Virus record (IMG/VR): IMGVR_UViG_3300025289_000029
Span: 1 to 61,576 of that record
DNA from: a virus
Length of the DNA: 61,576 nt
Strand: one strand, 5' to 3'
Shown here: piece by piece, positions 37,199 through 56,520 of the stretch
How the letters are laid out: every line of letters begins with the position of its first letter
How positions within the stretch are numbered: the first letter of the stretch is position 1
Position numbers and translations under genes: made by a program
Notes under the pieces: model-generated
Told to the model about the DNA's origin: nothing
What the model saw: only the letters and a program-made list of their open reading frames with translations
Database searches by the model: none

Positions 37199-37250
37199 GA
37201 CACTTATATCTTACAGATAAAGCACAGCGAAGCTAAAACTTCGCCTGTGC
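37199..37250 (-). other. Hairpin + ATAAGTGTC element, copy C
   Basis: Read on the minus strand: a stem of about eleven pairs (GCACA..GCGAAG / CTTCGC..TGTGC, 37250-37222) followed by a spacer and ATAAGTGTC (37207-37199). It lies 28 bases upstream of the gene at 37171. Three relatives are at 37652, 37746 and 56454. Confidence 0.7.
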
Positions 37251-37362
37251 CCCTGTCCTATTAGGGGGCCTCGCGGGAGTAGTGTAGTCAACGTGCCTTA
37301 CCTGTCTATCATCTTAGCAGATGTTATATACATCTGTCAATACTATCTGAACGCTAAAAGGG

Positions 37363-37458
37363 AAAAAGCTGAGGGGCAGACCTCCCGCAAAATCTGCCCC
37401 TCTTGAGAGCGCCCACGACTTTGACGCGCACACAACACCCCAGCCAGCGTGGTCGCCT
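37363..37458 (-). ncRNA. Predicted small RNA, minus strand
   Basis: About 96 bases from the expected start after TATAAT (37470-37465) to a strong terminator: stem GAGGGGCAGA/TCTGCCCCTC (37402-37393 with 37380-37371) and five T on the minus strand (37367-37363). No open frame of note. It is either a small RNA or an attenuated leader of the 37171 gene. Confidence 0.6.
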
Positions 37459-37464
37459 ACTGTG

Positions 37465-37492
37465 ATTATACCATATTTGGCAACGCTGTCGA
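37465..37492 (-). promoter_or_regulatory. Promoter for minus small RNA / operon
   Basis: TCGACA (37492-37487), 16 bases, perfect TATAAT (37470-37465). Confidence 0.7.
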
Positions 37493-37501
37493 TCAGCAAA
37501 C

Positions 37502-37530
37502 TTGTTGGCAGCAGCAAAGTGTGGTATAAC
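37502..37530 (+). promoter_or_regulatory. Promoter for plus small RNA
   Basis: TTGTTG (37502-37507), 17 bases, TATAAC (37525-37530). The -35 box is weak. It is divergent from the promoter at 37465-37492. Confidence 0.5.
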
Positions 37531-37536
37531 TTGGGT

Positions 37537-37602
37537 GCATCGACCCTCCCTGTTGATGCGGGCTGAAGAGACAGACTCCCTCCGTGGGAGTCTTCTCTTT
37601 TT
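37537..37602 (+). ncRNA. Predicted small RNA, plus strand
   Basis: About 66 bases: a first hairpin GCATC...GATGC, then a terminator with stem GACTCCC/GGGAGTC (37574-37580 with 37586-37592) and a run of five T at 37598-37602. No open frame. Mirrors the small RNA on the other strand. Confidence 0.6.
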
Positions 37603-37651
37603 GTCCAATCGTCCAATCATCCCAACGTGGGCCAGCTTAGCAGGTTATCTC

Positions 37652-37712
37652 AAAAGAACCTTTCAGGTTCTTTTCTGATAAGTGTCCATGTTGATGATAA
37701 GTCTCTTTAGCA
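37652..37712 (+). other. Hairpin + ATAAGTGTC element, copy A
   Basis: Stem AAAAGAACC/GGTTCTTTT (37652-37660 with 37666-37674), then GATAAGTGTC ending at 37686, then TTGATGATAAG and CTTTAGCAT. The stem sequence differs from the other copies but pairing is kept. Confidence 0.7.
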
Positions 37713-37745
37713 TTTGATTTCAACAAAGGGGCACGGGATAGATAG

Positions 37746-37812
37746 AAACATAGCCTTCGCTATGTTTTATCCTTTAGGATATAAGTGTCAATATTGATGC
37801 TAACTCTTCTTA
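37746..37812 (+). other. Hairpin + ATAAGTGTC element, copy B
   Basis: Stem AAACATAGC/GCTATGTTT (37746-37754 with 37759-37767), loop CTTC, then ATAAGTGTC at 37781-37789 and TTGATGCTAA after it. Same order and spacing class as the other three copies. Confidence 0.7.
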
Positions 37813-37911
37813 ACAGTTGTTTACAGTTCAGACCAGGCGATCTTTTTCGATCAGTTGGAACTGGCTGTCTGGGTGAGCTGGGTAGATTATCAAACTTCGC
37901 TGTCTGAGCTA

Positions 37912-37941
37912 TTGACAATTGCCCCCTTCCTTCTATATAAT
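37912..37941 (+). promoter_or_regulatory. Promoter of the accessory operon
   Basis: TTGACA (37912-37917), 18 bases, TATAAT (37936-37941), both perfect. The first gene starts at 37972. Confidence 0.8.
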
Positions 37942-37971
37942 AAAGAGGCACACGAGAGGAGTCACAACAGG

Positions 37972-38253
37972 ATGATAGAGCTAAGCGAATCCGCAGTCGA
38001 AAGCCTCGCAGCAGCCGCGTTAGGTGTAGAGTCCACCTTCGACGTAACACCGTTGCCGGAGGGCGAGCGGTACACAACGCTGAAAGGCCAGGGCTATGCC
38101 ACACTGCTTGAGATTCTTAGGGCTATAGACGTGCCCACGAGTGATCTAAGAGAAGCAGCAGAACAGGGGATATATGAGTTCCTGCGGGGACAGTCAGCTT
38201 ACCTGCGGCGTCGTATTCAAGAGTGGTTGAAAGAGCCAGAGCAGATTAAGTGA
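37972..38253 (+). CDS. Hypothetical protein, first of accessory operon
   Basis: 93 residues from ATG 37972, AGGAG ten bases upstream. Helical; pattern TLKGQGYATLLEILRAIDVPTSDLREAAEQG. Not recognised. First gene after the strong promoter at 37912-37941, hence probably early and abundant. Confidence 0.6.
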   Translation: MIELSESAVESLAAAALGVESTFDVTPLPEGERYTTLKGQGYATLLEILRAIDVPTSDLREAAEQGIYEFLRGQSAYLRRRIQEWLKEPEQIK

Positions 38254-38453
38254 GATGTCCAAACTGTGAGTCGGTCATGGAACGTGAGGATCATGTTGAC
38301 ACCTCTGGTTTCCCAGAGCTTATCATCCACGCTATCTACGTCTGTGAGGACTGTGGCGCGGAGTACATCTGGAGACGGGCAACCGGCAGACTAGAATCGC
38401 TGTTTGACCCTCGTGATAACGTGCCCAAAGAGTACACAGATGCCACGTCCTAG
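38250..38453 (+). CDS. Small zinc-ribbon protein
   Basis: 67 residues, GTG start overlapping the previous stop. CPNC near the start and CEDCGAEYIWR about 25 residues later form a standard zinc ribbon, as in many phage and archaeal small proteins. Function unknown. Confidence 0.65.
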   Translation: MRCPNCESVMEREDHVDTSGFPELIIHAIYVCEDCGAEYIWRRATGRLESLFDPRDNVPKEYTDATS

Positions 38454-38772
38454 AGTCAGCTCCGGCCAGCGTTTGCTGAGGAACATCTTGGTCGATAACG
38501 GCTTCGGGCCTATCCAGATGGAGTACGGCGTCGCTGGTTACTCGGTAGACCTCTATCTGCCTGAGCATCACATTGGGATCGAGTACGACGGCCCACTTCA
38601 CCACCTGACGCATCAGGAAGACGCCGTTCGCTGTGCGAACATAACGAAGGCAGGTCTGCCGTTGCTGCACGTGACAAGTGCAGAAGTCAAAGTTGCAAAG
38701 TCGAACCCGAAGGCACTTGTGAAAAAGGTTGCGGCTTTTGTTCGACTGAGAGGTACGCAATGCAAGGGTTAA
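38440..38772 (+). CDS. Vsr/DUF559-like nuclease
   Basis: 110 residues from ATG 38440. VDLYLPEHHIGIEYDGPLHHL gives the D...ExDGxxH core of the Vsr/DUF559 endonuclease fold; LLHVTSAEVKVAKSN follows. Overlaps both neighbours by about 13 bases. Related to the gene at 34408-34857. Possibly a free-standing mobile or repair nuclease. Confidence 0.7.
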   Translation: MPRPRVSSGQRLLRNILVDNGFGPIQMEYGVAGYSVDLYLPEHHIGIEYDGPLHHLTHQEDAVRCANITKAGLPLLHVTSAEVKVAKSNPKALVKKVAAFVRLRGTQCKG

Positions 38773-38948
38773 CCCTAGCTAGCAGTCTCCACGATAAGGT
38801 TCTAGAACGTCTGGAGAAGTTTGACGTTCCACGTAGTTACACGAAGCCGTGGGTGCTGTACCTTGTCTGCTTGCTGGCTGTTGACACACTAGACACAGAT
38901 GAGGAGTTAAAGCAGAAGATGTTGGAGTATCTAGGTGACAAAGATTAG
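38760..38948 (+). CDS. Small hypothetical protein
   Basis: 62 residues, helical (SSLHDKVLERLEKFDVPRSYT). Start and stop overlap neighbours. Not recognised. Confidence 0.5.
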   Translation: MQGLTLASSLHDKVLERLEKFDVPRSYTKPWVLYLVCLLAVDTLDTDEELKQKMLEYLGDKD

Positions 38949-39180
38949 AGTGCAGACAACTTCGGGCTGTTACACCGTCCCCGACCCTGATGATGAGTGC
39001 GCTTGGTGTGGCGACGCCAGACGGCAGCACACTGAGACAGGTTGCAGGTTGTGTGGAAGATACCCGTGGGAGCGCGGCATCTACGCCTGCACAGGATTTG
39101 TCGAACGGGACAAGGCAGCAGCCCGTAGGAGAAAGTTTATGAAGGCCGCAGGTCTCCTCGATGCCAACAGTTCTAGCTGA
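38935..39180 (+). CDS. Small Cys-rich zinc protein
   Basis: 81 residues, GTG start. CAWCGDARRQHTETGCRLCG plus YACTGF give C-x2-C ... H ... C-x2-C, a zinc site of the kind common in this operon. Stop overlaps the methylase start by 20 bases. Confidence 0.6.
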   Translation: MTKIRVQTTSGCYTVPDPDDECAWCGDARRQHTETGCRLCGRYPWERGIYACTGFVERDKAAARRRKFMKAAGLLDANSSS

Positions 39181-39847
39181 CGCACGTCAAACAAGCTTGG
39201 CCGAGGAGTCTGTTAACCTCATCATCAGCGATCCGCCTTGGGACGCTCTGGACAAGTGGCGTAGCGTTGGTACGACCACTCGACTCGGTGGGCACCACCG
39301 CCCTGAGCTAAGAACGGGCTGGTTCGAGACACTGAGCACACAAGAGATTATTGAGATTCTGCGCCATGCTCACAGCTACCTGAAACCCAACAGCCATCTC
39401 TACTGGTTCGTACATCCCGAAGCGGCTGGCGAAGTTCTTATCGCAGCCAAAAAACTTTTCGACTACGCGAAGCTGTTGGTGTGGGATAAGGTTAACATGG
39501 GAATGGGTTATCACTACCGCGCTCGGCACGAGTTCGTCCTCTTTGCTGAGAAGGGTAAAAGGCGATTGAACAGCCTCAGCATACCCGACGTTCTGGAGTT
39601 CAAAGCGGTCACGAAGCGCCAACAGCTATACCCGACCCAAAAGCCACTTGAGCTAGTCGAAGTGTTCATCAAACAAAGCAGCGTCGCAGGTGAACTCGTG
39701 TTCGATATGTTCACTGGCAGTGGCACGACTGCTGTTGCTGCGGTCAGGAACAACCGTAGCTTTGTCGGATGGGACTTAAACGAAGAGGCAGTATGTATCG
39801 CCAACGAGCGAGAAAGGAGTGCCCGAAATGGAATGTCCGTTGTGTGA
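39161..39847 (+). CDS. DNA methyltransferase, N4/N6 (DPPW type)
   Basis: 228 residues. DPPW at residues 24-27 (motif IV), MFTGSGTTAVAA near 190 (motif I) in the circularly permuted beta-class order, and TQKPLELVE before it. Such enzymes methylate cytosine-N4 or adenine-N6. No restriction partner is next to it, so it is probably a protective phage methylase. It is the second adenine/cytosine-N methylase in the window (the other is fused to the capsid protease). Confidence 0.85.
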   Translation: MPTVLADARQTSLAEESVNLIISDPPWDALDKWRSVGTTTRLGGHHRPELRTGWFETLSTQEIIEILRHAHSYLKPNSHLYWFVHPEAAGEVLIAAKKLFDYAKLLVWDKVNMGMGYHYRARHEFVLFAEKGKRRLNSLSIPDVLEFKAVTKRQQLYPTQKPLELVEVFIKQSSVAGELVFDMFTGSGTTAVAAVRNNRSFVGWDLNEEAVCIANERERSARNGMSVV

Positions 39848-39947
39848 GGAGACGCTGAGTCCACGCAGGAACGCAAAGCGCGTGACCTGCAAAGAGTGTG
39901 GCTCCGTCTATGTTATAGAGGAGCTGGCGGATAGGCTGGCAATATGA
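39828..39947 (+). CDS. Mini zinc-ribbon protein
   Basis: 39 residues, ATG with AAAGGAG upstream. CPLC near the start and CKECGSVYV near residue 22 form a zinc ribbon. Starts inside the methylase 3' end and overlaps the next gene by ATGA. Confidence 0.65.
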   Translation: MECPLCEETLSPRRNAKRVTCKECGSVYVIEELADRLAI

Positions 39948-40132
39948 AGTACTACTACATTGTTGGCACCGCTCGTATTCGGGGAACGATAGTGGCTGAG
40001 AACGCTGAGCAAGCAGAAGCAGTTGTCAAAAGCCATCTGAACCGTGTCTACGGTGGTGCTGGGTCTCGTTTGGAGGTCAAGGTTATAGACATATATGCCC
40101 ACTCAAAAGGGAAGGTAGGAGAGACGGAATGA
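39944..40132 (+). CDS. Small hypothetical protein
   Basis: 62 residues, one strand-helix-strand unit (YYYIVGTARIRGTIVAENAEQAEAVV) resembling small ferredoxin-like phage proteins of unknown role. Confidence 0.5.
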   Translation: MKYYYIVGTARIRGTIVAENAEQAEAVVKSHLNRVYGGAGSRLEVKVIDIYAHSKGKVGETE

Positions 40133-40434
40133 GCAAGCACGCAGCGGGGCCGTGGTCTTACGCGGCCAGGCTATCAGCCTCCGAGAACCATAAGGGCTTT
40201 GCGCTCTGGCCCGCCACCGGAGGCTCCATCGCTGAGATATACCCTCTTGACCAAGACGGGCGGCAAGGCGAGGCCAACGCCCGCCTGATAGCCGCCGCGC
40301 CTGACCTGCTGGCGGCGCTCAGGGACGCTGTTGATGTTATGGAGCGTAGTCAGCCCCACGAGGGCGGCTACACGTGGCAGCGACTAGAGCGCGCCCGCGC
40401 CGCTATCGCCAGCGTGGAAGGAAGCGACAAATGA
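40129..40434 (+). CDS. Ead/Ea22-like protein
   Basis: 101 residues. AAGPWSY ... NARLIAAAPDLLAALRDAVDVME is the typical Ead/Ea22 pattern. Coupled by overlaps to both neighbours. Second copy of the family (see 36698-37171). Function unknown. Confidence 0.7.
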   Translation: MSKHAAGPWSYAARLSASENHKGFALWPATGGSIAEIYPLDQDGRQGEANARLIAAAPDLLAALRDAVDVMERSQPHEGGYTWQRLERARAAIASVEGSDK

Positions 40435-41171
40435 GACTTCTAGTAGTTGACTTCGATTACTTCGTGCCTGTTATAGAGCGTCCACAGGACGGTGACACTT
40501 GGCCTCTCTATGACTGGGGCCACTCTGAAGCATACGGCAACGGTCTTCAAAGTGCTCTCTGGGACATACGCGCTATGGGGTTTCTCAGGCACGGTTATAA
40601 CCTGCCAACGACCAGCGGTGAAGAGGTCAACTTCTGGTCGCGGTTCGACATCAAGCCCAACGCTCCGTTCTACGTGGCTGATAGTAATGTTCACGCTTAC
40701 GCTCCGAGGGTGCGTAGAGGCGTTACGGACGTGTGGCTGTACGACGCACACCACGACTGTGGCTACAAACAGAAACTCTCTGACATTTTCATGTCAGGCA
40801 AGCTGAGTTGCGAAGACTGGATGATCGGCTACTGGCTGGCCGGTGCAAAGCTGCATGTCCGCTATCCTAAGTGGCGGCGGTATGCTATGACGTTGGAGCC
40901 CAAGCCCAACCTTCAGTATAAGCTCGACCGCAAGGTCGATAACGGCGACGACCTGCCACTACGCTTCGACAAGGTTTTCGTCTGCCGCTCAGGTGCCTGG
41001 GTTCCACCTTGGCTGGATATGGACTTTGTGAAGTTCATCCTGCGGTCAGGACTGCCGATGCCGAAGAAGCTCGATGAGGTGAAGATGCGTAAGTGGAGCT
41101 TGGATAGCGTTTTAGAGTTAATGGAGACTGAGGCGAAGATGCTCCAGAAGGCGAATGAGCTACAAAAATGA
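40431..41171 (+). CDS. UPF0489 / arginase-fold-like protein
   Basis: 246 residues from the ATG overlapping the previous stop. VVDFDYF at the start, WGHSEAYG near 30, VADSNVHAYA near 87 and WLYDAHHDCGY near 105 place Asp/His residues like the UPF0489 and arginase/deacetylase fold, where DxHHD binds metals. A metal-dependent hydrolase is likely; substrate unknown. The C-terminal third is basic. Confidence 0.55.
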   Translation: MRLLVVDFDYFVPVIERPQDGDTWPLYDWGHSEAYGNGLQSALWDIRAMGFLRHGYNLPTTSGEEVNFWSRFDIKPNAPFYVADSNVHAYAPRVRRGVTDVWLYDAHHDCGYKQKLSDIFMSGKLSCEDWMIGYWLAGAKLHVRYPKWRRYAMTLEPKPNLQYKLDRKVDNGDDLPLRFDKVFVCRSGAWVPPWLDMDFVKFILRSGLPMPKKLDEVKMRKWSLDSVLELMETEAKMLQKANELQK

Positions 41172-41413
41172 AAACCAAAGAACTTCTAAGGGTACTGGAG
41201 AGGCTTGAGTGGAGCACCCATGCAGACTGTGAAGGGACGGGATTCATGGGAAGTGGGCCTCCGATGCACCCGTATGCTCACCCTGCCTGCCCGCTTTGCG
41301 GAGGACTGAACCCACAGCAGAAGTACCCTAACTGTTTCAACAAGTCCGCCTTGGGGCACCGCCCTGGGTGTTCTCTTTATGATGCCATTGTCACCCTAAA
41401 AGGAAATGCGTAA
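41168..41413 (+). CDS. Small Cys/His-rich protein
   Basis: 81 residues with HADCEGTG, CPLCGGLNP, NCFN and GCSLYD, enough for one or two zinc sites. Unknown function. Confidence 0.55.
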   Translation: MKTKELLRVLERLEWSTHADCEGTGFMGSGPPMHPYAHPACPLCGGLNPQQKYPNCFNKSALGHRPGCSLYDAIVTLKGNA

Positions 41414-42035
41414 GTATAGAATAGGTGATGTCGTCTTCTGGTGGAGTGGTCAGCGCCGTGTTGTCCAGCGCATCCGCGAGACGAAGCACGGTGGGCATTG
41501 TTACTATGGGCTAAGAATACTCAAGTCTGTAGCGCGCAGTCTGCCGGTCAGGTACACCAACGTCGGCTTCGACGGTCGAGCAGACAAGACACGTATCTAC
41601 TGGGTGCGTTCGGACAGGTTGGCGGCGTTCGACGGCGCAGCAAATAGAACAGGTGAAGCGGGGAGGCCAAAGTTGATAGCAAACAAGGGTCGGCGGCGTA
41701 GCAGTCGAATGGACACCTGTCCGTTCTGCGGTGGGCCTAAATATAAAGTCAGCAAGACTTGTAACGGATGTAGATGGAGACTCCTACCAACGAGGGTTTG
41801 TTCTTCTTGCGGTAAGCGTAAGAGCAGACGAGCAGATATCTGTGCAACCTGTTACGCTGCCCAATCGCGTGTCAGCCCGCAGACTTTGGCGATACTCGAA
41901 GCCCTAGAGCGTGACGCCAAATACGGACGATACGCTCGCGTTGCCAGACAGTTCGGTTTGACCAGAGCTAGGGTTAGTGCTATCGCTGGAGCGCACCGCG
42001 AAGGGTGGAAGGATGCAGAGGAAAAAAGTGGCTGA
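41406..42035 (+). CDS. Zinc-ribbon and HTH regulator-like protein
   Basis: 209 residues. Residues 1-75 form a strand-rich SH3-like part (GDVVFWWSGQRRVVQRIRE). Residues 100-150 have three Cys pairs (CPFCGGP, CNGC, CSSCGKRKSRRADICATC) as two zinc ribbons. Residues 160-200 are a helix-turn-helix (YARVARQFGLTRARVSAIAG). Possibly a DNA-binding regulator. Confidence 0.6.
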   Translation: MRKYRIGDVVFWWSGQRRVVQRIRETKHGGHCYYGLRILKSVARSLPVRYTNVGFDGRADKTRIYWVRSDRLAAFDGAANRTGEAGRPKLIANKGRRRSSRMDTCPFCGGPKYKVSKTCNGCRWRLLPTRVCSSCGKRKSRRADICATCYAAQSRVSPQTLAILEALERDAKYGRYARVARQFGLTRARVSAIAGAHREGWKDAEEKSG

Positions 42036-42243
42036 AGGGACACATTCATATATCTGCTCAGAGTGCGGTACTTGGTGCAACGACACACCCCTGACGTATG
42101 AGTACCCTGATAGACATCCACACCCTAAAAAGGTGTGCTTGGATATTCTGCGCGCGAGGATGGCCAGAGAGCTTGAACTACTTGGGCGTGGAGTGAGAGA
42201 AACATATGCGTCTATTCAGAAAGTGGAGAGGAGAACGATATGA
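42013..42243 (+). CDS. Small zinc-ribbon protein
   Basis: 76 residues from ATG 42013, overlapping the previous gene. ICSECGTWC and a later C form a probable zinc site. Function unknown. Confidence 0.5.
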   Translation: MQRKKVAEGTHSYICSECGTWCNDTPLTYEYPDRHPHPKKVCLDILRARMARELELLGRGVRETYASIQKVERRTI

Positions 42244-42587
42244 GTTTCGTTGCCGACTTAGAGCGCATGCCGTCAATACTTAACCGGCGTCCGCTCACTG
42301 ATGGCGAGAGGGCTGCGATTCTGAGAAAGCAAGCGGAAGCACTTATCCGCCATCTCTACAACCCACATCCCGAATATGGTTGGCGGGTGAGTAGCCGCGC
42401 TGATCAGTTTAAGGGCGAAACTATCAACTGGGGGGACTTACACGTCGTTCTTGTTGAACCAATGGAGGACGGGTCGTTCATTGTTACCATTGAAGAGGCC
42501 AGCCATGATTGCCCTCTATTCACTGCCTGGATGGAGAAATGGTTACTAGACTGGGGTTGGAAGTGTGAGGTTAGGACGGAGTGGTGA
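42240..42587 (+). CDS. Hypothetical protein
   Basis: 115 residues, ATG overlapping the previous stop. Alpha/beta with FITVEEAS-type strands and Trp-rich end (WMEKWLLDWGWKCEV). Not recognised. Confidence 0.5.
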   Translation: MSFVADLERMPSILNRRPLTDGERAAILRKQAEALIRHLYNPHPEYGWRVSSRADQFKGETINWGDLHVVLVEPMEDGSFIVTIEEASHDCPLFTAWMEKWLLDWGWKCEVRTEW

Positions 42588-43264
42588 TTGCACTGTTTCT
42601 ACTCTCCCATCGTCAAATCCGACTGCTCTATCGAAACCCTACCGTTGCTGTCTGGTATATAGTCTTACCCATCCTTCTCATTGTCATTGTGATGCCGGTA
42701 ATGAAGGTCGTCGTAGTGGACAGTCCGGCCCAAGTCATACCAGGGTTCACGCTGATGTTTTCCGCTTTTCTGTCTACAACGCTCGCTGGCCGAATCGTGC
42801 GCGACAGGCAAAGTGGTGTCTGGCGGTGGTTTATGACAACGCCTACGTCTCCGTTTATTATCATCACCGCGCCCGCTCTAGCCGTGCTCAGTTTGGGTGT
42901 TCTACAAACTGGGACTGCGTTGGCGTTCGGGAGTATGTTCTACGGTCTGCACGGAGTTCGTATTGGTCTGTTTGCTTTCCTTGCGATACCGATAGGCGCA
43001 GGGCTGTTACTTGCCAGCCTGACCGATGACCTAGCGTTGCAGGCAAACGTCCTTAACCCGTTGGCCCTTGTGTCGTCTGTGCTCGGCGGTGCTGTGATAC
43101 CTTTATCCACACAACCGAGCTGGCTACAGTTTGCAGCGCGGTTCAGTCCTCACTACTACGGAATGGATTCAAGTTTTCTGAGTATGGTGGTCTTGCTCGG
43201 AGGCGGCGCATCACTCTCACTATTTGCCGCATTTAGACTCAGGAAACTGACTTGGCCCGTTTAA
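42581..43264 (+). CDS. ABC-2 type membrane permease
   Basis: 227 residues, GTG start overlapping the upstream stop. About six membrane segments in the ABC-2 export permease layout: long N-terminal amphipathic helix (SHRQIRLLYRNPTVAVWYIVLP), central VRDRQSGVWRWFMTTPTSP loop (the 'coupling' element), and FSPHYYGMD before the last segment. No ATP-binding partner lies in the window. An orphan export permease is most unusual in a phage; it may use a host ATPase. Confidence 0.75.
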   Translation: MVIALFLLSHRQIRLLYRNPTVAVWYIVLPILLIVIVMPVMKVVVVDSPAQVIPGFTLMFSAFLSTTLAGRIVRDRQSGVWRWFMTTPTSPFIIITAPALAVLSLGVLQTGTALAFGSMFYGLHGVRIGLFAFLAIPIGAGLLLASLTDDLALQANVLNPLALVSSVLGGAVIPLSTQPSWLQFAARFSPHYYGMDSSFLSMVVLLGGGASLSLFAAFRLRKLTWPV

Positions 43265-43580
43265 AATTAGCCTCCTGCAAACTGCCAATCTTTCGGTTAA
43301 TGGGTGCGTCAACGTTGGAAAAGGGTCGGTTTGGTAGTTATATCAACCAACCGCCAACTGCTCACTGTTGTCGAAATCAAAGCTGGCAGAGCCTCGCGCT
43401 GGCTCAGGCGCTGTGCCAGACGAGAACAACGGTGGCAGCACCAACGTTGGCACAGCGCCGACCGGCGTGGCCGCCGTCGCCAATGTTGTCGGCCCCACCC
43501 GCCAGCGTGAACCGTCAGCCACCTTTGACACAGCCATGTTCGTATCGCTGGGAGGGTAGGGTTAATTGCTAACTGGACAG
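43265..43580. other. Non-coding stretch with GTTGGC-type repeats
   Basis: About 320 bases between the permease gene and the next promoter. Holds several GTTGGC/GCCAAC words (for instance ACCAACGTTGGC near 43440) and CCCGTTTAAAATTAG (43256-43270), which returns at 50167-50180. A 63-codon TTG-initiated frame (43368-43559) is open but has no RBS and looks like chance. Related to the array at 49.87-50.56 kb. Confidence 0.5.
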
Positions 43581-43589
43581 CCTGGACTA

Positions 43590-43628
43590 TTGACATTCGA
43601 CCCCGGCTGTGCTAAACTATCCATAGTT
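43590..43628 (+). promoter_or_regulatory. Promoter with palindrome at the start site
   Basis: TTGACA (43590-43595), 17 bases, TAAACT (43613-43618). AACTAT-CC-ATAGTT (43615-43628) overlaps the -10 box and start site as a possible operator. Drives the MoxR/VWA operon through a leader of almost 400 bases. Confidence 0.75.
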
Positions 43629-43677
43629 CAAGAGAGAGGAGGAGGCCCAAGCTAGAGGGCCAACAACAGGATAGGGA

Positions 43678-43773
43678 GTGGCAACGGGAACCGACGAGAA
43701 GGCCCAAGAAGAGCCGAACCCGCGCCTGCGAAGCGACGACCACAACTCATGTGACGGCTGCCAGCGGCGGTAG
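43678..43773 (+). CDS. Leader peptide, doubtful
   Basis: 31 residues, GTG start after AGGATAGGG; contains NSCDGC and ends at a double stop TAGTAG. The same frame then stays open to 44001. It could be a small gene, the first half of a broken gene, or a case of readthrough. Confidence 0.35.
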   Translation: MATGTDEKAQEEPNPRLRSDDHNSCDGCQRR

Positions 43774-43878
43774 TAGGAAAACCCACTGACAGCAAAGGCC
43801 GACTCAGAACCCACCCTGACCTGCGCTCGATCCCACATAGACCTGACAACGGCCCGCAGGCAGGCCGAGGCGAATGGG

Positions 43879-44001
43879 ATGCTCGCCCGTCGGGAAGCGG
43901 TTATAGCTACACCAAAAGCTGAAGGACAGAAACAGAACGCCAGCGTCCGTCTGCGCTGGGAAACACACAAGCGAATCTTAATAGAAAGGAGTCCAACATG
44001 A
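43879..44001 (+). CDS. Small basic protein in leader
   Basis: 40 residues from ATG 43879, very basic (RLRWETHKRILIERS). Its TGA overlaps the next ATG (ATGA), as with most real genes here. In the same frame as the peptide upstream. Function unknown. Confidence 0.4.
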   Translation: MLARREAVIATPKAEGQKQNASVRLRWETHKRILIERSPT

Positions 44002-49767: not shown

Positions 49768-49804
49768 TATTTCTCCACTTAATACCTATTAAAACGTTTA
49801 CAAT

Positions 49805-49845
49805 GTTGGCAGTTAACCTTTTTGGTTGGCTGCCGACTTTTTTTT
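49805..49845 (+). terminator. Rho-independent terminator
   Basis: Stem GTTGGCAG/CTGCCGAC with an inner AACC/GGTT stem, followed by eight T (49838-49845). Ends the plus operon. Confidence 0.85.
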
Positions 49846-49869
49846 GGGGAGATAGGGTTGGTAGTCAAT

Positions 49870-50560
49870 TGAGACTAAGTATCAATAAGACAAAGTAGCC
49901 ATCAAAGTGACGTTGGAAGTGTCAAAATTGGCACTGAGTGGATAAAGTAAGTGGAGACTTGCTTCATAATTGGTCAAGTAGGTCGTTGGGGGGGTCAATG
50001 TTGGGGCTGAGAGGGATTTAGACAGTGTAGAGTTTGTCAATGTAGAGTTTGTCAATGGTGGCATACCGGAGTTCGGATTCTAGAACAGGGATAATCAAAT
50101 GTTGCAGCAAAGTTGGAAGTGGCAGCCGCTGAGCCTATTCACGTTTGGCGCTGCCAATGTTGGCAGCCCGTTTAAATTAGACGTGCGCGGAGACGCTCAG
50201 CGTTGGGAGTGTCAATGCTGACAGCCAACGTTGGCGTTGAGTGTGGGAGAGGGTTCCCTACAGGCTATCAGTTTTGACATTTTCAACAGTGGTTGGCCTT
50301 TTAAACTTATCACTCCAGAGCCTCACAGTGTTGGCGGTGTCAATAGTGACCGCCAATGTTGGGAGTTGATTTGGATAGCAGGTCGCTGAGGTGTGCTCAC
50401 CGTTGGTGCTACCAATGTTGGCCGAGGCCCATAACCATATCACACCAGAGTCTCTCAGCGGTGGACGTGCCAAAGGTGGCAGAAGCACACGCAAGCCCAT
50501 AATTTAATCACAACAGAGCCTCGGCACGTTTGGCGCTGCCAATGTTGGCGGGTCGCGGCC
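49870..50560. repeat. Array of degenerate GTTGGC-rich repeats, non-coding
   Basis: At least six related units. CACGTTTGGCGCTGCCAATG-type units occur exactly at 50140-50164 and 50525-50549. Other units vary inside the arms. ATCACxxCAGAGYCTC precedes the arms near 50309, 50439 and 50507. Each unit can fold (GGCGCTGCC, GTTGGC..GCCAAC). Possible replication origin, packaging region or regulatory array. No open frames of note. Confidence 0.65.
50026..50055. repeat. 15-bp tandem repeat
   Basis: Two exact copies of TGTAGAGTTTGTCAA inside the repeat region. Confidence 0.85.
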
Positions 50561-50569
50561 TGCGCCCGG

Positions 50570-51078
50570 TAGAACCCCTACTCTAACCCTAACGTCAACG
50601 TTCCGTGTTATGTCAACCTAAGCCTGCCCTTGGCTGCGAACGCACGTTCTGAAGAGACAAAATTGACCGTCTTCAGATACAAAAGATTCACAACTTTGAC
50701 GGTTGACACCATTGACAGTTGCTCTACTTATATGAGACAATTGTCGCAGATAACGACAGCCCCCTCCCCCGACAGCAGGCGCGCAGACCGACACGGCAGG
50801 CGCTAGGCCGAGGGGCGAGAGGGGCCGAATAGGGGAGAAGCCGGGAAGACGGGACACACACTCGCGCCCACCGGAGCCCCTGCGACAGACCGACAACCTG
50901 TTAGAGAGAGAACGGCGGTAAACGCCGTTGAACCGTGTAATGAGAGGTTGACGCTAACCCTCGCCGGTAGGGAGTAGAGCCTATCTAGCCTACGGCAAAA
51001 TGAGCGGCGAGATTGAATAGGGGGAGAACGTGATAGGCAAGCGCTTCTCCCCTCTCTCGTTACACGGTTCAGCGGTAT
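50570..51078. other. GC-rich non-coding stretch
   Basis: About 500 bases without a credible gene. Holds TTGACA words near 50701 and 50713 without a good -10, and C/G-rich tracts near 50760-50830 (GCAGACCGAC, AGGGGCGAG) that return after the module at 52.57-52.65 kb. Confidence 0.5.
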
Positions 51079-51101
51079 CGAACATTTGTTCTAGTGAACA
51101 A
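51079..51101. promoter_or_regulatory. LexA-type SOS box and overlapping palindrome
   Basis: CGAACATTTGTTCT (51079-51092) fits the GAAC-N4-GTTC LexA box of Gram-positive and actinobacterial hosts. TTGTTC-TAGT-GAACAA (51086-51101) overlaps it. It lies 24 bases upstream of the ATG at 51116. Confidence 0.65.
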
Positions 51102-51115
51102 GGAGTTGACATAAC

Positions 51116-52051
51116 ATGAGCAAGAAGCGAAACCGCCGACCGATGCCGACGCCGCCGACAGCGCCGGAAGCGGTAACACCCGACGCCGCCGCCGTTGTAG
51201 CCGACGCGCAATCGCTCGTCTCTGACGAGCCGGAAGCGCAGACGCCCGACGCGGCGAAGGCAGTTGCCGAAACCGTCCCGACGCGAGCCTACGTCAAGAG
51301 CCTGCGAGCCTTGTCAGTCAAGGCAGTCAAGGCAGGCGACACGGCAACCGCCGACACCCTGACAGCGGCAGCTAACCTAGCCGAGCAGCAGGTAGAACAG
51401 CAGGAGCAGGAACGCAAGGCGAAGACAGCGCACAGCAGCGCCCTTCTCGCGTTCCTTCAGAAGCTGTTGCCTATCTGCTACGCAGGCGACATCAGCGACC
51501 GCGAGCGCATAGCGAAAGCGCTCGGAGTCACCGCCGACGACATCCCGAACGCGCCGCCTAACTCCCCCTTCACGGCGCGATTCAGCCTTGAACCGCCGTT
51601 TGTCGAGAACGCGACACGCGGGCGGAAGCAAGGCGACACCGCCCCCCGTGCGACAATCAATGCGAGCGACCTAAAGGCTGCAAGCGTTGAAGCATTCTTG
51701 ATGCCCGACGGTAGCGAGATGCCGCCGACGACCGTACACGGCAAGCCTGTCAAGGCACACCCTGTTGCCTACCTTGACGCGCTAGGCGTCTGCCGGTATG
51801 ACCGCGACTGCACGAACGCAGAGCACACAGCCGCAGCGGAGCGCGGCGATAAGGAAATCGCCGGACGGACGTTCACAGATGCGCAGCGGCAGAAATTCGC
51901 CGCAGGTGACGGGCTCAGGCACGGCGACAGCGCAAGCCGAGAGTTTGCGTCACACGGCGCTACCGACACCGTTCACAACGCCCGCATGACCGACGGAAGC
52001 ATTCAGCCCGTCAAGGACATCGTAGCGCAGATACTCGCAACCGCGAGTTAG
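51116..52051 (+). CDS. Hypothetical protein of SOS-box module
   Basis: 311 residues, AAGGAG before ATG. Ala/Pro/Asp-rich N terminus with a repeated 'TPDAA' unit, a helical middle with coiled coil (LAEQQVEQQEQERKA), and a C-terminal part with 'VCRYDRDCTNAEH'. Codon use (many CGA, GCG, GCC-GAC) differs from the neighbouring operon, so it looks acquired. Not recognised. Confidence 0.55.
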   Translation: MSKKRNRRPMPTPPTAPEAVTPDAAAVVADAQSLVSDEPEAQTPDAAKAVAETVPTRAYVKSLRALSVKAVKAGDTATADTLTAAANLAEQQVEQQEQERKAKTAHSSALLAFLQKLLPICYAGDISDRERIAKALGVTADDIPNAPPNSPFTARFSLEPPFVENATRGRKQGDTAPRATINASDLKAASVEAFLMPDGSEMPPTTVHGKPVKAHPVAYLDALGVCRYDRDCTNAEHTAAAERGDKEIAGRTFTDAQRQKFAAGDGLRHGDSASREFASHGATDTVHNARMTDGSIQPVKDIVAQILATAS

Positions 52052-52119
52052 TCACAGCGCCGCCGTTCTCTCTCTCTCACTTCTACCTGAACGAACGTAA
52101 CAGACAAGGAGAAGAACCG

Positions 52120-52329
52120 ATGAGCAGATACGCAAGGATGCGCATCCCCCGCTCCGAATACCTCCGAGTAGCGAACTACGGAGCGACGCCGGAGCGACTC
52201 GTCAACGCGAAGTGCAGCGCATGCGGCAGGAAGATAACGAGCGTCAGCCGCGACCGTGCTTTCCGCTTCCTACGCGAGCATGAAACGCTACACTTCCTAG
52301 AGCACGACCGAGAGGGGCGAAACCGATGA
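52120..52329 (+). CDS. Small C2H2-type zinc protein
   Basis: 69 residues, RBS AAGGAG. CSACGRKITSVSRDRAFRFL followed by HETLHFLEH gives C-x2-C-...-H-x3-H-like spacing. Basic, probably nucleic-acid-binding. Overlaps the next gene by ATGA. Confidence 0.6.
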   Translation: MSRYARMRIPRSEYLRVANYGATPERLVNAKCSACGRKITSVSRDRAFRFLREHETLHFLEHDREGRNR

Positions 52330-52568
52330 TAGACATAGAGACAACCGACGCAGCAATCGCAGCCGCCCTTGACGAGATAGGCCGCAGCCGCCGCGAACTT
52401 GCGTTGCAAATCGACGGCGAGATGCAACGTATTTTCATTCGCGCCGTCACCCGTGCGGTAGTCACCGCCTTGACGCCGCCGGAGATGCGGCCCTATCTGC
52501 CGAGCAAACGCCTAACAAGCGAACCCCGCTACGACGACAACGGCAGGCGAGTCAAGGCGCGACGGTAG
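52326..52568 (+). CDS. Small hypothetical protein
   Basis: 80 residues, helical, (ALDEIGRSRRELALQIDGEM). Third gene of the module, same codon style. Not recognised. Confidence 0.5.
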   Translation: MIDIETTDAAIAAALDEIGRSRRELALQIDGEMQRIFIRAVTRAVVTALTPPEMRPYLPSKRLTSEPRYDDNGRRVKARR

Positions 52569-52739
52569 TCAGTGACAGCCGCAGGTAGAGGGGCGAGGCG
52601 ACGACGACTTTAAAGAACACGCCGACGCCCGCCCCCTACCGCAGACCGACCCCGACCGCGTGGAAATTGCGCGGATCGGCAGAGCCACGAAGGGTCAGGA
52701 CATCTCTCATACGTACCAACTTTTAGGTTTAGAGAAGAA

Positions 52740-52769
52740 CATATGTGCGACTACATTAGCACACATATG
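52740..52769. terminator. Inverted repeat between convergent operons
   Basis: CATATGTG (52740-52747) and CACATATG (52762-52769) with a 14-base loop in the 214-base gap between convergent genes. No T-run follows closely; it may still end transcripts from both sides. The GC-rich tracts near 52585-52645 form another imperfect stem. Confidence 0.4.
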
Positions 52770-52782
52770 CTTGCTTCAGCAG

Positions 52783-53499
52783 CTAAGCTGAGCACTCAGG
52801 ATGCCAACTGCGCTCACCTGTTGCCATATCTATCAACCACCAAGCGCCCTGCTTATCTTGGGCGAAGTCAACGCTCCAGAAGTTGTAATGGACACAGACC
52901 GCACCGGCTTCTTCTGCCCGCGTTGCCAGCTCAGGCGGCGGCTCATACTGTTCTAGCTCTGTCAACGCTTCCTTCCATTTGGGCGGCTCAGCGCCGTGGA
53001 AGCGCATCGCGTCCTCTGTCCAATAGAAGTGTCGGCAGACAACTTTGCCATCACGGACAAAGTATCTCCATTCGCGGGCGATAGGATGCCCACCGAAGGC
53101 TTCAAACCCACTCTGTAGATCAAGGAACTGACGTAGCATAAAGGCCGCAGGCTGTGCGCGTTCTAACCAGAACTTGACTTCGTTGTCTTCAACCGTTGCC
53201 CACAGTACCTGTCTGATCCCCTCTGGGTCGCGGATTAGATAGCTATCGGGGCCTTGATGCTTTGCGCTCGCCAAGTCACTTCGCACGAACAGCGGATAGC
53301 CGAGTTCGTCAGCCACAGACGCAACCTTTTCAACCGTTGCCGCGAGCACTTTGTCAAACTCAGGTAGACGCTTTCTCGACTCCATTACACTGACCCAGAC
53401 AGCGTGGTCATATTGGACGAACCTAGTCTCCGGCACGCGCAAGTGAGCTATGCGTGGGAACCAGTAAAGAGCACTGTTCAACGCGGGTGCAGTTTCCAT
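52783..53499 (-). CDS. ATP-grasp protein (DUF4343-like)
   Basis: 238 residues. FVRSDLASAKHQGPDSYLI, EWRYFVRDGKVVCRHFYW and WSVDFAQDKQGAWWLIDMATGERS follow the order of ATP-grasp domains: Lys in the first loop, the EWR strand and the Asp/Glu metal site near the end. Such proteins make peptide-like or nucleotide-like bonds using ATP. It is last in the operon that starts with the repressor. Substrate unknown. Confidence 0.75.
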   Translation of the reverse strand: METAPALNSALYWFPRIAHLRVPETRFVQYDHAVWVSVMESRKRLPEFDKVLAATVEKVASVADELGYPLFVRSDLASAKHQGPDSYLIRDPEGIRQVLWATVEDNEVKFWLERAQPAAFMLRQFLDLQSGFEAFGGHPIAREWRYFVRDGKVVCRHFYWTEDAMRFHGAEPPKWKEALTELEQYEPPPELATRAEEAGAVCVHYNFWSVDFAQDKQGAWWLIDMATGERSWHPECSA

Positions 53500-53502
53500 C
53501 TT

Positions 53503-53754
53503 CTACCACTTATCAATGATATCAAGGAGCCTATGGGTTATCTTGAGGTCTTCGGCTCTCAACCTCACATCCAGTCGTGGAACTATCCATCCAGCTTCAT
53601 CCAACGCGGCAATTAGCTGACGCACCGCTTCTCCATTGATTATGAGCGAGGGCTCTGCTGCGACACCCTCTTCGTAGTACCCTGCTGGAGAGTAGTTCCA
53701 AGACCCACGAGGTACGTCCAGCCACCAGTGACCAGGGCGATAAATTTTAGTCAT
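53503..53754 (-). CDS. Small hypothetical protein
   Basis: 83 residues, YRPGHWWLDVPRGSWNY then an alpha/beta part. Overlaps the DUF4326 gene by eight bases. Not recognised. Confidence 0.5.
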   Translation of the reverse strand: MTKIYRPGHWWLDVPRGSWNYSPAGYYEEGVAAEPSLIINGEAVRQLIAALDEAGWIVPRLDVRLRAEDLKITHRLLDIIDKW

Positions 53755-54001
53755 CTAGCATCTCCACTAGAACGTCTCCATGACACGGTAGGGGGGCACA
53801 CCAGCACCCTAAACGCCTACCACGAAGCTCATCGAGCGCGGCCATCAACTCTGGTGTTGCTTGTATCCACGTTCTGTATAGGTCAATCACCTTCCTGCGG
53901 CTGCCGTCCCTGCCGATCTTAAACGGATTCCCCCATTTCGACGGTCTGCCGATGTAGACATCGAACTCACTGTCACGTCTGTTGACAACAGTGGTATTCA
54001 T
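53747..54001 (-). CDS. DUF4326 protein
   Basis: 84 residues. VYIGRPSKWGNPF at the start and LGCWCAPLPCHGDVLVEML at the end are the signature of DUF4326, common in phages, function unknown; Cys and His suggest a metal site. Part of the operon with a phosphoribosyltransferase and an ATP-grasp protein. Confidence 0.85.
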   Translation of the reverse strand: MNTTVVNRRDSEFDVYIGRPSKWGNPFKIGRDGSRRKVIDLYRTWIQATPELMAALDELRGRRLGCWCAPLPCHGDVLVEMLDD

Positions 54002-54031
54002 TTCGTGTTTATAGAGGTGGCGTCGAGTTCA

Positions 54032-54148
54032 TCATTTATCTTTTGTAAGTAAGCTGTCCATCCAAGGCATCAGCGCGAAAGGTGGGTAATCACTGCGATT
54101 GTGATAACCGTCGTGCGTTCTCTTTAGAACCTCTTTGAAGTCTGCCAT
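54032..54148 (-). CDS. Small protein
   Basis: 38 residues, ATG with GGAGG upstream (YHNRSDYPPFALMPWMDSLL). Overlaps the next gene upstream by 59 bases in another frame. Not recognised. Confidence 0.5.
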   Translation of the reverse strand: MADFKEVLKRTHDGYHNRSDYPPFALMPWMDSLLTKDK

Positions 54149-54320
54149 TCTCTGCCTCCATCAATCTCTCACGTCTTTCGTGTCTCAACTCACTGACGAT
54201 TTCGTCCCCAAATGTGATGATACCGTCCAATGGTGGAACACGCTCTGCCCCCACCTTGCTGCCACACTTGCAGAACCAACCCAGAAGTCTACCTGCACAG
54301 TTAACACAGTAAAGAGGCAT
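54090..54320 (-). CDS. Small zinc-ribbon protein
   Basis: 76 residues. CVNCAGRLLGWFCKCGSK is a compact zinc ribbon; the rest is basic and helical. It starts directly after the phosphoribosyltransferase stop. Confidence 0.6.
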   Translation of the reverse strand: MPLYCVNCAGRLLGWFCKCGSKVGAERVPPLDGIITFGDEIVSELRHERRERLMEAENGRLQRGSKENARRLSQSQ

Positions 54321-54722
54321 CTACAGTTTGATTGACGCCCAGGTTATCACACGAGGCACATGGACGTAACGATTTCTGACAACTACCACCAGAGCGAATT
54401 TGTAGGGTACAACACGCAAACTGGCTCCTGTTGTTACCACGTCATCGATGACAACTATCGGCTCCTGACCAGCGGGTAATCTGTCAGGTGTTCCCCAAGC
54501 GTTGCCGGTGCGCTCAGCGAGAGCCTCTGCCCATACTATCCCTCCGGTCGGTATAGCGACCAATCGTACTTTTCTGTCTCCTAGCTTTTCCTGCCAATAG
54601 TCAAGCACGCTCTCCCGTATATGTTCATCGTTGAACATTGCTGCGCCGTCTACAAACCAATGACTCTTACTGCCGCTGTGCAGCGTGATAAGATTAGGGC
54701 TCCAACGTAGCCAACCACTCAA
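54321..54722 (-). CDS. Phosphoribosyltransferase
   Basis: 133 residues from the TTG overlapping the upstream stop (TTGA); the frame stays open to 54797 but that would overlap the membrane gene. Core VAIPTGGIVWAEALAERTG and the PRPP-binding motif VVIDDVVTTGAS are plain. It resembles orotate-type enzymes in size. It joins a base to PRPP or splits a nucleotide. Together with ATP-grasp and DUF4326 it may form a nucleotide-derived pathway. Confidence 0.8.
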   Translation of the reverse strand: MSGWLRWSPNLITLHSGSKSHWFVDGAAMFNDEHIRESVLDYWQEKLGDRKVRLVAIPTGGIVWAEALAERTGNAWGTPDRLPAGQEPIVVIDDVVTTGASLRVVPYKFALVVVVRNRYVHVPRVITWASIKL

Positions 54723-54916
54723 GGTGTGTAGCCACACAGACGTTGAACGTTGAGGGAGGCGTATATCTTGGGGTCGCCGTTGCGGGCGAACTCCCATCTG
54801 ACCTCAGCTACTCTACAGGCGTCTGATTTATTATCAGACCCGCCCGTAGCGTTGAAGACAGCTACGACTATCGCCAGTGCTATCACTACGGCGCAGACCG
54901 TGAGAACGATTTTCAT
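54719..54916 (-). CDS. Small secreted or membrane-anchored protein
   Basis: 65 residues with one N-terminal hydrophobic segment (IVLTVCAVVIALAIVVAVF) and a soluble tail with two cysteines. ATG overlaps the repressor stop (ATGA). A superinfection-exclusion type role fits its place beside a repressor but is only inference. Confidence 0.6.
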   Translation of the reverse strand: MKIVLTVCAVVIALAIVVAVFNATGGSDNKSDACRVAEVRWEFARNGDPKIYASLNVQRLCGYTP

Positions 54917-55224
54917 TTCAAACCTCTCAGTAGCTCCAACAACGACCGCTGTTTGTCAAAAGACATCTTGCTGATGTCTGTGGCCAGTTCGGGCAGAACG
55001 TCGATCTTTACGTATTTTGCACCCATGAGTGTATACACATCGGTTGCCAACGCTTCCGCAAGCCTGACCGCGACCCCAATCGATACGTTCTTCACCTGTC
55101 CGCACTCGACCTGTGATAGATACCCCTGGCTCATTCCAGCGGCCAGGGCCAATTCTTTTTGGGATAGCCCAAGCTCTCCTCTGATCGTTTTGACTCTCTG
55201 GCCGAGTTCTAACCCTGTAAGCAC
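54913..55224 (-). CDS. XRE-family repressor
   Basis: 103 residues, GTG start with AGGAGAG. Residues 5-65 form an HTH_3 domain (IRGELGLSQKELALAAGMSQGYLSQVECG). The rest is a short helical tail, no protease domain, so it is of the small repressor type. Promoter at 55264-55292 carries a palindrome for probable self-control. It is the first gene of the minus operon. Confidence 0.85.
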   Translation of the reverse strand: MLTGLELGQRVKTIRGELGLSQKELALAAGMSQGYLSQVECGQVKNVSIGVAVRLAEALATDVYTLMGAKYVKIDVLPELATDISKMSFDKQRSLLELLRGLK

Positions 55225-55238
55225 TACTTCTCTCCTAA

Positions 55239-55292
55239 TTGAACATCTTCACCGTCGTTATATATGATAGAGTATCATCACGTCGATGTCAA
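55239..55292. promoter_or_regulatory. Divergent promoters with operator between repressor and HNH genes
   Basis: Minus: TTGACA (55292-55287), 17 bases, TATCAT (55269-55264). Plus: TTGAAC (55239-55244), 18 bases, TATGAT (55263-55268). TGATA-GAG-TATCA (55265-55277) is a perfect palindrome overlapping the -10 boxes, a likely operator of the XRE repressor. Confidence 0.75.
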
Positions 55293-55663
55293 TGCGTGAC
55301 CCTTCTCTACGAGGACTGCGAAGCGACCCTTCGATGCGGTTTCCCCGCCCCGATAAGCGCGACCCTGTTGATAGGGCCGAAGCTGCTAAGTCCTACTATC
55401 GCCGTAACGCCGATAAGGTCAACACACGTGTTGGCAGGTGGCGCGAAGAGAACCCCCGTAAGCGCGTCGCTCACATGGCTGTCAAGCGGGCGCTGTACAG
55501 TGGCGAACTGATAAAACTTGCCAACTGCCAACGGTGTCCTCGGAAGAAGATTGACGCTCACCATGACGACTATGACAGGCAGTTGGATATCATCTGGCTG
55601 TGTCGGAGCTGCCACCGTCTTCGCCATCGTCAGTTGAAATTGGAAGGACGTGACCCTGATTGA
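55286..55663 (+). CDS. HNH-type endonuclease-like protein
   Basis: 125 residues. CQRCPRKKIDAHHDDYDRQLDIIWLCRSCH fits the HNH fold of phage nucleases, with CxxC pairs for zinc, HH at the active site and the final His. Basic N-terminal half. HNH proteins near terminase genes often help packaging; this one lies about 1.4 kb upstream of terminase. The start has no clear RBS and is about ten bases from the promoter start site. Confidence 0.75.
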   Translation: MSMRDPSLRGLRSDPSMRFPRPDKRDPVDRAEAAKSYYRRNADKVNTRVGRWREENPRKRVAHMAVKRALYSGELIKLANCQRCPRKKIDAHHDDYDRQLDIIWLCRSCHRLRHRQLKLEGRDPD

Positions 55664-55680
55664 TGCTATAATAGTCATCG

Positions 55681-55938
55681 ATGCTTGATGCGGTCTTAAC
55701 TGCCATCGCCATCGCGGTGATGTTCCTGGGAACCTACCTGGCGGCGTTCCCAAGAAAGGAGACTGATGAACGAGATAGGTCTTGGAGTAGCGATGGGAGC
55801 ATTCCTTCCACCCGTGGTCAGCTTCCTGAAGCGGAGCCGTTGGCCGACATGGGCAACGATGGCGCTGACCGTTGCGGTCTGCCTCGTCGCAGGCACCGCA
55901 AACGGCGCTATCAACGGGACGGTGACGCTCAACGGTGA
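55681..55938 (+). CDS. Overlapping small membrane frame
   Basis: 85 residues. First 25 (VLTAIAIAVMFLGTYLAAF) form one membrane segment; the rest is antiparallel to no gene but overlaps the holin candidate in another frame. A nested overlap like this is seen in some lysis genes (spanin or antiholin), but the polar tail may be chance. Confidence 0.35.
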   Translation: MLDAVLTAIAIAVMFLGTYLAAFPRKETDERDRSWSSDGSIPSTRGQLPEAEPLADMGNDGADRCGLPRRRHRKRRYQRDGDAQR

Positions 55939-56065
55939 TATCATCCAAGACACTGAGGGGCTGTTGGCGGCGTCAGCGGCGTCATTCACCAGTGCCACTG
56001 TTGTCTACAAGACGTTCTTTCAGAACACCGCTGTCAACGACACGTTGACAGGTGTGGACAGGTAA
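55766..56065 (+). CDS. Holin candidate
   Basis: 99 residues, strong RBS AAAGGAG. Two membrane segments (EIGLGVAMGAFLPPVVSFL; WATMALTVAVCLVAG) near the N terminus, then a polar part. Size and layout fit holins of the phage r1t/LL-H type. It lies far from the endolysin, which is not rare. Confidence 0.5.
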   Translation: MNEIGLGVAMGAFLPPVVSFLKRSRWPTWATMALTVAVCLVAGTANGAINGTVTLNGDIIQDTEGLLAASAASFTSATVVYKTFFQNTAVNDTLTGVDR

Positions 56066-56096
56066 CGAGGCTAGGTACAGAAAGGAGGTGATCTAG

Positions 56097-56360
56097 TTGG
56101 TAGAACCAGTTGGCGTAGGTGACGCGGTGCGCTTCGTCGACGCCATCGGCAACCCACACGTTGCTGTCGTTACAGCCGTGTGGGGAACCTTTGAGCACGG
56201 CGACCCGTCTCACGGCACCGCCGTTCCCAGTCTGAACGTGGTCTACGTCTCCGATGACGAGACCAAGTACGACACCTATGGGCGGCAAATCCTCCGCGAG
56301 ACCAGCGTCGTTCACCGCTCCGCACAGGCGGCACACGGTATGTTCTGGGACAACCTGTAG
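56097..56360 (+). CDS. Small hypothetical protein
   Basis: 87 residues, TTG start with AAAGGAGGTGAT. Beta-rich (GDAVRFVDAIGNPHVAVVTAVW; NVVYVSDDETKYDTYGRQI), SH3-like by pattern. Not recognised. Confidence 0.55.
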   Translation: MVEPVGVGDAVRFVDAIGNPHVAVVTAVWGTFEHGDPSHGTAVPSLNVVYVSDDETKYDTYGRQILRETSVVHRSAQAAHGMFWDNL

Positions 56361-56453
56361 CCGCCCTCTCCGAGACGCTGGCACCGATGAGGCACCGGTT
56401 GATTGGAGACGCTGGTTCAACTGGAGGTAAATGGTCTTTAATAGGTACAGTTC

Positions 56454-56520
56454 GAGCGAAGCTTTAGCTTCGTCGTGCTTTACACCTTAAGGGTATAAGT
56501 GTCTATATAGGTGATAACGA
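56454..56520 (+). other. Hairpin + ATAAGTGTC element, copy D
   Basis: Stem GCGAAGC-TTTA-GCTTCGT (56456-56473), then a spacer with CCTTAAGG, ATAAGTGTC at 56495-56503 and GGTGATAACG. It lies upstream of the terminase genes, 45 bases from the ATG at 56565. Confidence 0.7.

Follow-up and report, generated by a model that had tools for sequence, protein, structure and literature searches.

A four-copy hairpin and core element before early and terminase genes of a tailed phage, a candidate RNA signal acting on elongation

The window analysed here is a whole IMG/VR virus record (IMGVR_UViG_3300025289_000029; 61,576 bases), and its gene content, with a large terminase, a Mu-type portal, DNA polymerase A, a B12-dependent ribonucleotide reductase, and an amidase, is that of a tailed phage. 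Four copies of an element of about 90 nucleotides (nt) were found in it, named c1 (minus strand) and c2, c3, and c4 (plus strand), with all positions and strands given in window coordinates. Read on the sense strand, the element consists of hairpin I, a 4-bp mini-hairpin II (in three of the four copies), a conserved core, and a tail. Each copy probably works in cis as RNA transcribed from this strand, and its action may fall on elongation or termination of transcription, an assignment that is made tentatively. The reading as a whole, that of a sense-strand RNA element which modifies elongation and resembles the put and nut sites of other phages in its working, is plausible and held with the same reserve.

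Four copies with a shared core and fixed spacing

The core and tail of all four copies follow the pattern ATAAGTGTC-N-AT-N-T-N-G-N-T-NN-TAA-N8-ARCA-N-TT without any change of spacing, which amounts to 23 fixed positions over 38 nt. Copy c1 (37262-37160, minus) lies upstream of gene 37171-36698, and its ATAAGTGTC occupies 37207-37199; its core and tail (ATAAGTGTC...TAA...TTAGCAATTG, 37170..37207, minus) hold the Shine-Dalgarno (SD) sequence AAGGAG of the TTG start at 37171. Copies c2 (37640-37725, plus) and c3 (37735-37828, plus) stand in tandem with a core-to-core distance of 103 nt, and c4 (56440-56542, plus) is found in the 204-nt gap between gene 56097-56360 and gene 56565, which precedes the large terminase gene. 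In these three copies, the pattern scan located the core and tail at 37678..37715, 37781..37818, and 56495..56532, all on the plus strand, with ATAAGTGTC starting at 37678, 37781, and 56495, respectively. All four copies point the same way as the next downstream gene. No two of them are identical, and the core is nevertheless kept at fixed spacing.

The set is well separated from the rest of the window, where the closest non-member misses 7 of the 23 pattern positions. A sequence profile built from c1, c3, and c4 recovered the held-out c2 core (37678-37722) with 30.9 bits and an E value of 1.2e-8 and found no fifth copy in the window; c1, itself part of the model-building set, scored 83.9 bits (E 3.6e-25). 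An earlier note on this DNA, made from the letters alone, had described four dispersed copies with a shared spacer, core, and tail, and all four were recovered at those places.

Hairpins and placement in the control regions

Hairpin I of c1 (GCACA[G]GCGAAGT-TTTA-GCTTCGCTGTGC, 37222..37250, minus) has one bulged base in the 5' arm, and the 48-nt fold has an energy of -20.6 kcal/mol. The corresponding hairpins, obtained by folding and supported by the shuffle test, are GATA[G]AAACATAGC-CTTC-GCTATGTTTTATC in c3 (37741..37771, plus) and CGA[G]CGAAGC-TTTA-GCTTCGTCG in c4 (56453..56475, plus), whereas c2 forms a 10-bp stem of unrelated sequence, AAAAGAACCT-TTC-AGGTTCTTTT (37652..37674, plus), flanked by TTATC and GATAA. 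Mini-hairpin II was recognised by eye on the alignments in c1 (AUCU-GUA-AGAU, 37208..37218, minus) and c3 (AUCC-UUUA-GGAU, 37769..37780, plus) and from suboptimal folds and the alignment in c4 (ACCU-UAA-GGGU, 56484..56494, plus), and it is missing from c2. In c3 it overlaps the 3' end of hairpin I, so the two pairings are partly mutually exclusive. When the 48 nt before ATAAGTGTC were compared with dinucleotide shuffles, all four copies folded better than expected, with z-scores of -4.7, -2.7, -3.6, and -2.4 for c1 to c4 and p values of 0/1000, 0.016, 0.003, and 0.021. Over the whole element, the sense strand has a lower folding energy than the antisense strand in every copy, although the shuffle z-scores fail to separate the strands.

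The covariation proved thinner than first stated, its base being four paralogous copies with two-sided changes at a handful of pairs. It had been proposed that stem bases change while pairing is kept. This holds for c1 against c4, which have the inner stem CGAAG..CTTCG in common and show compensatory changes just below the bulged G (e.g., A-U to G-C), and for mini-hairpin II, where a two-sided change among c1, c3, and c4 was seen by eye. It does not extend to c3 or c2. A common primary sequence, TAGC..TTCG..TGYTTTA, runs through the hairpin in c1, c3, and c4, so the stem of c3 arises by pairing in a shifted register and not by column-by-column covariation, and the c2 stem is of other sequence altogether. 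The presence of a hairpin in all four copies despite this turnover of sequence argues for the hairpin itself.

Three of the copies lie in a control region of about 800 nt (37172-37971) that has early genes on both sides, and the fourth stands at the beginning of the late structural genes, which run from 56565 to the record end and also comprise 1-18554 if the record is a circularly permuted genome. Gene 56565 had been named as the terminase; the large terminase (Pfam GpA_ATPase) is encoded at 57058, and gene 56565, which directly precedes and overlaps it and is kept at the same place in relatives, presumably encodes the small subunit. On the left side, a promoter (TTGACA-18-TAAGAT, 37311..37340, minus) with the spacer palindrome CAGATGTATATAACATCTG is predicted, whose expected start site lies about 50 nt before the beginning of c1. 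Considering this promoter upstream and the SD sequence inside the c1 tail, c1 would be part of the mRNA of gene 37171 if the promoter is used, and by the predicted signals it is the only one of the four copies that lies clearly within an mRNA leader.

The right side is arranged differently. A predicted rightward promoter matching sigma70 at 12 of 12 positions (TTGACA-18-TATAAT, 37912..37941, plus) stands just before the ATG at 37972, and c2 and c3 are located between it and a predicted intrinsic terminator (37573-37593 or 37573-37603, plus) within the right control region. They therefore fall outside the leader made from the promoter of gene 37972 itself. A weak rightward promoter, TTGTTG-17-TATAAC at about 37502-37530, was noticed by eye upstream of that terminator, and no sigma70 promoter is predicted near c4. 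The claim that each copy precedes the first gene of a transcription unit is thus correct by position, while membership in the leader does not hold for c2 and c3 with respect to the 37912-37941 promoter. The core-to-start distances also differ, being 28 nt for c1, 62 nt for c4, 183 nt for c3, and farther still for c2, which makes a common direct effect on the start codon unlikely.

Possible mode of action and competing explanations

The order of hairpin, core, and tail, the hairpins of all four copies exceeding those of shuffles, the gene-wise orientation, the leader position of c1, and the layout, with one copy in a leftward leader, a tandem pair rightward, and one at the late operon with no sigma70 promoter near it, together favour a structured RNA. 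The stem sequence of c2 differs from that of the other copies and still yields a hairpin, which was counted on the same side, as were the compensatory differences between c1 and c4, the lower folding energy of the sense strand, and the terminator before c2 in the right control region. In the proposed mechanism, hairpin I and the single-stranded core (AUAAGUGUC...UUGAU..UAA...UUARCA) would be recognised as the element is transcribed. Their binder could be the transcribing RNA polymerase, a Nus-type factor of the host, or a phage protein, and the changed elongation complex might then read past terminators or pauses in the early operons of both directions and in the late one.

Very few phages are known to make RNA polymerase processive by RNA signals of a protein-free or minimal kind. 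The put RNA of phage HK022 is such a case, bringing about antitermination in cis through the beta' zinc-binding domain of RNA polymerase, with no phage protein involved. In that phage, putL closely follows PL and putR is found about 270 nt from PR, and each is composed of two stem-loops (PMC9378689). The present element is alike in being a structured RNA of roughly 70-90 nt with one copy in the leftward leader near its promoter and others rightward, in having no evident dedicated phage protein, and in that a larger bulged hairpin is immediately followed by a smaller one in c1, c3, and c4. It is unlike put in that the second hairpin has only 4 bp and is absent from c2, a long conserved core and tail lie outside the hairpins, a fourth copy stands at the late operon, and c2 and c3 sit between a terminator and a promoter. 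Of the two stem-loops within about 70 nt downstream of PL or PR that characterise put, c1 shows both in a leftward leader, c3 and c4 have both with another placement, and c2 lacks the second. The comparison with put was by layout and description rather than by sequence alignment, and the element has no Rfam match.

The nut sites of lambdoid phages offer a second parallel, since they also combine a hairpin with a conserved linear element in early leaders, and the tandem rightward pair c2 and c3 recalls nutR1 and nutR2 of mEp021, which uses three nut sites (nutL, nutR1, and nutR2), two of them rightward (PMC11893012). In nut, however, boxA comes before the boxB hairpin, while the hairpin comes first here; the loops read YUUM, where those of boxB are A-rich; no protein like N was recognised; and similarity to boxA is confined to c2. 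A hairpin that precedes boxA is known from the rrn antiterminators (PMC6614801), and the c2 tail CUCUUUAGCA resembles boxA. The tails of c1, c3, and c4 do not match it, and the element is not in an rRNA operon. The short hairpin at gene starts recalls in turn the promoters of the N4 virion RNA polymerase, from which the element differs by its long conserved core outside the hairpin and by belonging to a phage in which no such polymerase was found among the large proteins. The element is real and restricted to its lineage, and on the features tested it is placed in neither put nor nut, although it may work like them; of the suggestion in the earlier note that it is a put/nut-like site, the resemblance in layout stands and membership in either family is not supported.

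A bolder version of the proposal is unlikely, though it follows the same lines. Here the element, about 90 nt long, would represent a new phage RNA class, ordered as hairpin, mini-hairpin, AUAAGUGUC core, and UUARCA tail, unrelated to put and nut in sequence and architecture and without a known protein partner, which would reprogramme the RNA polymerase of the host in both early operons, left and right, and in the late one. Already on the main reading, a four-copy element that serves both early directions as well as the late operon, in a phage lineage without a cultivated member, would be a second, independent design. With four natural variants at hand, the element is a ready test object for structure-function work.

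Several results weigh against an RNA element that modifies elongation. The transcription of c2 and c3 is doubtful, as they follow a predicted terminator and precede a perfect promoter, and internal intrinsic terminators are no commoner in the right and late operons than in shuffles. The boxA matches of c1 to c4 (7, 9, 8, and 7 of 12 positions) gave shuffle p values of 0.47, 0.036, 0.28, and 0.36. Among the phage proteins, none was recognised as a partner of the N, NusG, or any other type: those adjoining c1 have either no PHROG match or one of unknown function, with no N family among them, although a short N-like peptide could escape, and the NusG family PF02357 had no match in the window while ten control genomes matched, which still leaves room for a host NusG paralogue. 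The absence of the element from every relative searched adds to this, for selection on the structure cannot be measured across species.

The main rival to an action as RNA is a site in double-stranded DNA for a phage regulator, which is rather unlikely. The conserved core of 38 bp would then be an operator or define a promoter class dependent on an activator or a phage factor, with the palindromes either part of the site or only local. Candidate binders are encoded at 22143-22448, a small stand-alone protein with a sigma-region-4/LuxR-type helix-turn-helix (Pfam Sigma70_r4_2, E 7e-9), and at 54913-55224, an Xre/DicA-like regulator. The directional and strictly spaced core does resemble promoter elements, c2 and c3 precede a promoter instead of standing in its leader, and c4 stands before late genes where no sigma70 promoter is seen. 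Conversely, the palindrome sequences vary among the copies, which a DNA-binding dimer would not allow; a start downstream of the core in c1 would cut off the SD sequence inside the element; and sigma70-like promoters for both the left and the right genes are already present elsewhere.

The element could also act as an RNA leader that governs how the mRNA is translated, processed, or stabilised, through a phage RNA-binding protein or a host RNase, leaving elongation untouched. The SD sequence within c1 and the hairpins supported in all four copies are consistent with this; the unequal distances from core to start codon are not, and for RNase III the stems, at 9-13 bp, are short, so that leader control of this kind appears improbable. 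A site for replication, packaging, or recombination, or a small mobile hairpin repeat that has decayed, is a weaker candidate again, with little probability. Sites of the cos and pac type often lie just before terminase genes, as c4 does, and a hairpin with a conserved flank recalls REP/IS200-type ends, yet the copies are confined to two control regions and the terminase gap, they are non-identical at fixed core spacing, and no decayed copies were found in the genome and none in the other phages and genomes searched.

A hairpin promoter read in the opposite direction (TNGACA followed by TAAAGC) or an N4-type single-strand promoter is very improbable, because the TNGACA that all four copies show opposite the core is no more than the conserved core read in reverse, the putative -10 (TAAAGC/TAAAAC) lacks the invariant final T, stands at a varying distance, and is missing from c2, and the promoter scan marks none made of these boxes at 15-19 nt in every copy. 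The one 10/12 minus-strand promoter match at c2 (37723-37694) is made of other bases and does not recur in the other copies. No phage-type RNA polymerase family was recognised among the large proteins; the PF00940 search was run without a positive control and carries no weight alone. The antisense sigma70 or N4 promoter, a boxA-based site, and the mobile repeat were considered and dropped. The alternative posed at the outset, structured RNA or hairpin promoter, is thus narrowed to structured RNA as the best-supported general reading.

Distribution of the element and neighbouring features

IMG/VR was scanned with four patterns, each relaxed in another way, and apart from contigs that match the window at 100% identity only single matches elsewhere came up; those examined, from two of the scans, lie mostly in long reading frames and reach 12-19 bits in the profile, compared with 31-84 for the true copies. 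A scan of 84,980 GTDB genomes gave four unrelated single matches, in line with chance. Searches for DNA similarity in phage and plasmid collections found none, and no Rfam family matched at the element at gathering or relaxed thresholds, the presence of put in Rfam being unchecked.

Relatives were sought through the terminase (18 loci) and the portal (80 loci), of which about ten are true relatives with 41-65% identity. A mismatch search did not find the element before the terminase genes of these relatives (L020, L022-L028, L103, and L104), and the profile found nothing in about 0.4 Mb of relatives' DNA, including two near-complete genomes of 63 and 67 kb. The GTDB terminase search found no relative and hence does not give the host. 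Further copies with compensatory changes in relatives, asked for in the earlier note, were not found, as the collections searched have so far yielded no element-bearing relative. This absence indicates a narrow lineage rather than an unreal element, and elements confined in this way are invisible to family databases.

The control region holds further short units. A candidate small RNA of about 90 nt is located at 37492-37366 (minus), with a sigma70-like promoter (TCGACA-16-TATAAT), a hairpin at the 5' end, and a second hairpin that forms a strong terminator (z -3.3). The same architecture recurs in relatives, in the divergent control region that precedes their terminase genes, at about 2035-2128 in L024, 7152-7226 in L026, and 7352-7430 in L028, which share GGUGGCUCAGCCCC, as well as at about 1634-1722 in L022, 3186-3276 in L025, and 5838-5945 in L103. 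A few compensatory changes (UA/CG) occur among the relatives, and the alignment across all seven units is poor, so that homology to the window copy is tentative. A mirror-image short unit occupies 37502-37604 (plus), where a weak promoter and a hairpin are followed by a terminator (z -3.3); an 11-bp pairing between GCUGAAGAGAC of this unit and GUCUCUUUAGC of the c2 tail would be possible, which may be chance.

Beyond the control region, the right block is closed by a strong terminator (49805-49837), after which about 1.3 kb (49838-51115) contain no convincing gene. This stretch carries a 34-nt repeat (50131/50516) and several repeated motifs, has no Rfam match, and is possibly an origin or an undescribed large RNA. 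In the closest relative (L020, portal 65%), positions 1600-3500 are taken up by degenerate repeats (GAGAGCACCG/GAGCAGCCG type) arrayed over 1.9 kb, and a tRNA-like stretch lies among them at about 2802-2875. A perfect 80-bp tandem duplication at 30558-30717 of the window is also present in contig L008, and contig L006 has a single copy, indicating that the copy number varies between assemblies. The relatives G003, G006, and G008 (loci L113-L122) possess a dispersed promoter class, TTGACA-nnnnTGCAGATRTRTGnTATAAT, whose constant spacer motif suggests that one regulator may act inside the promoter spacer. The TGCAGATRTRTG-like promoter spacers of relatives recall the palindrome in the window's leftward promoter.

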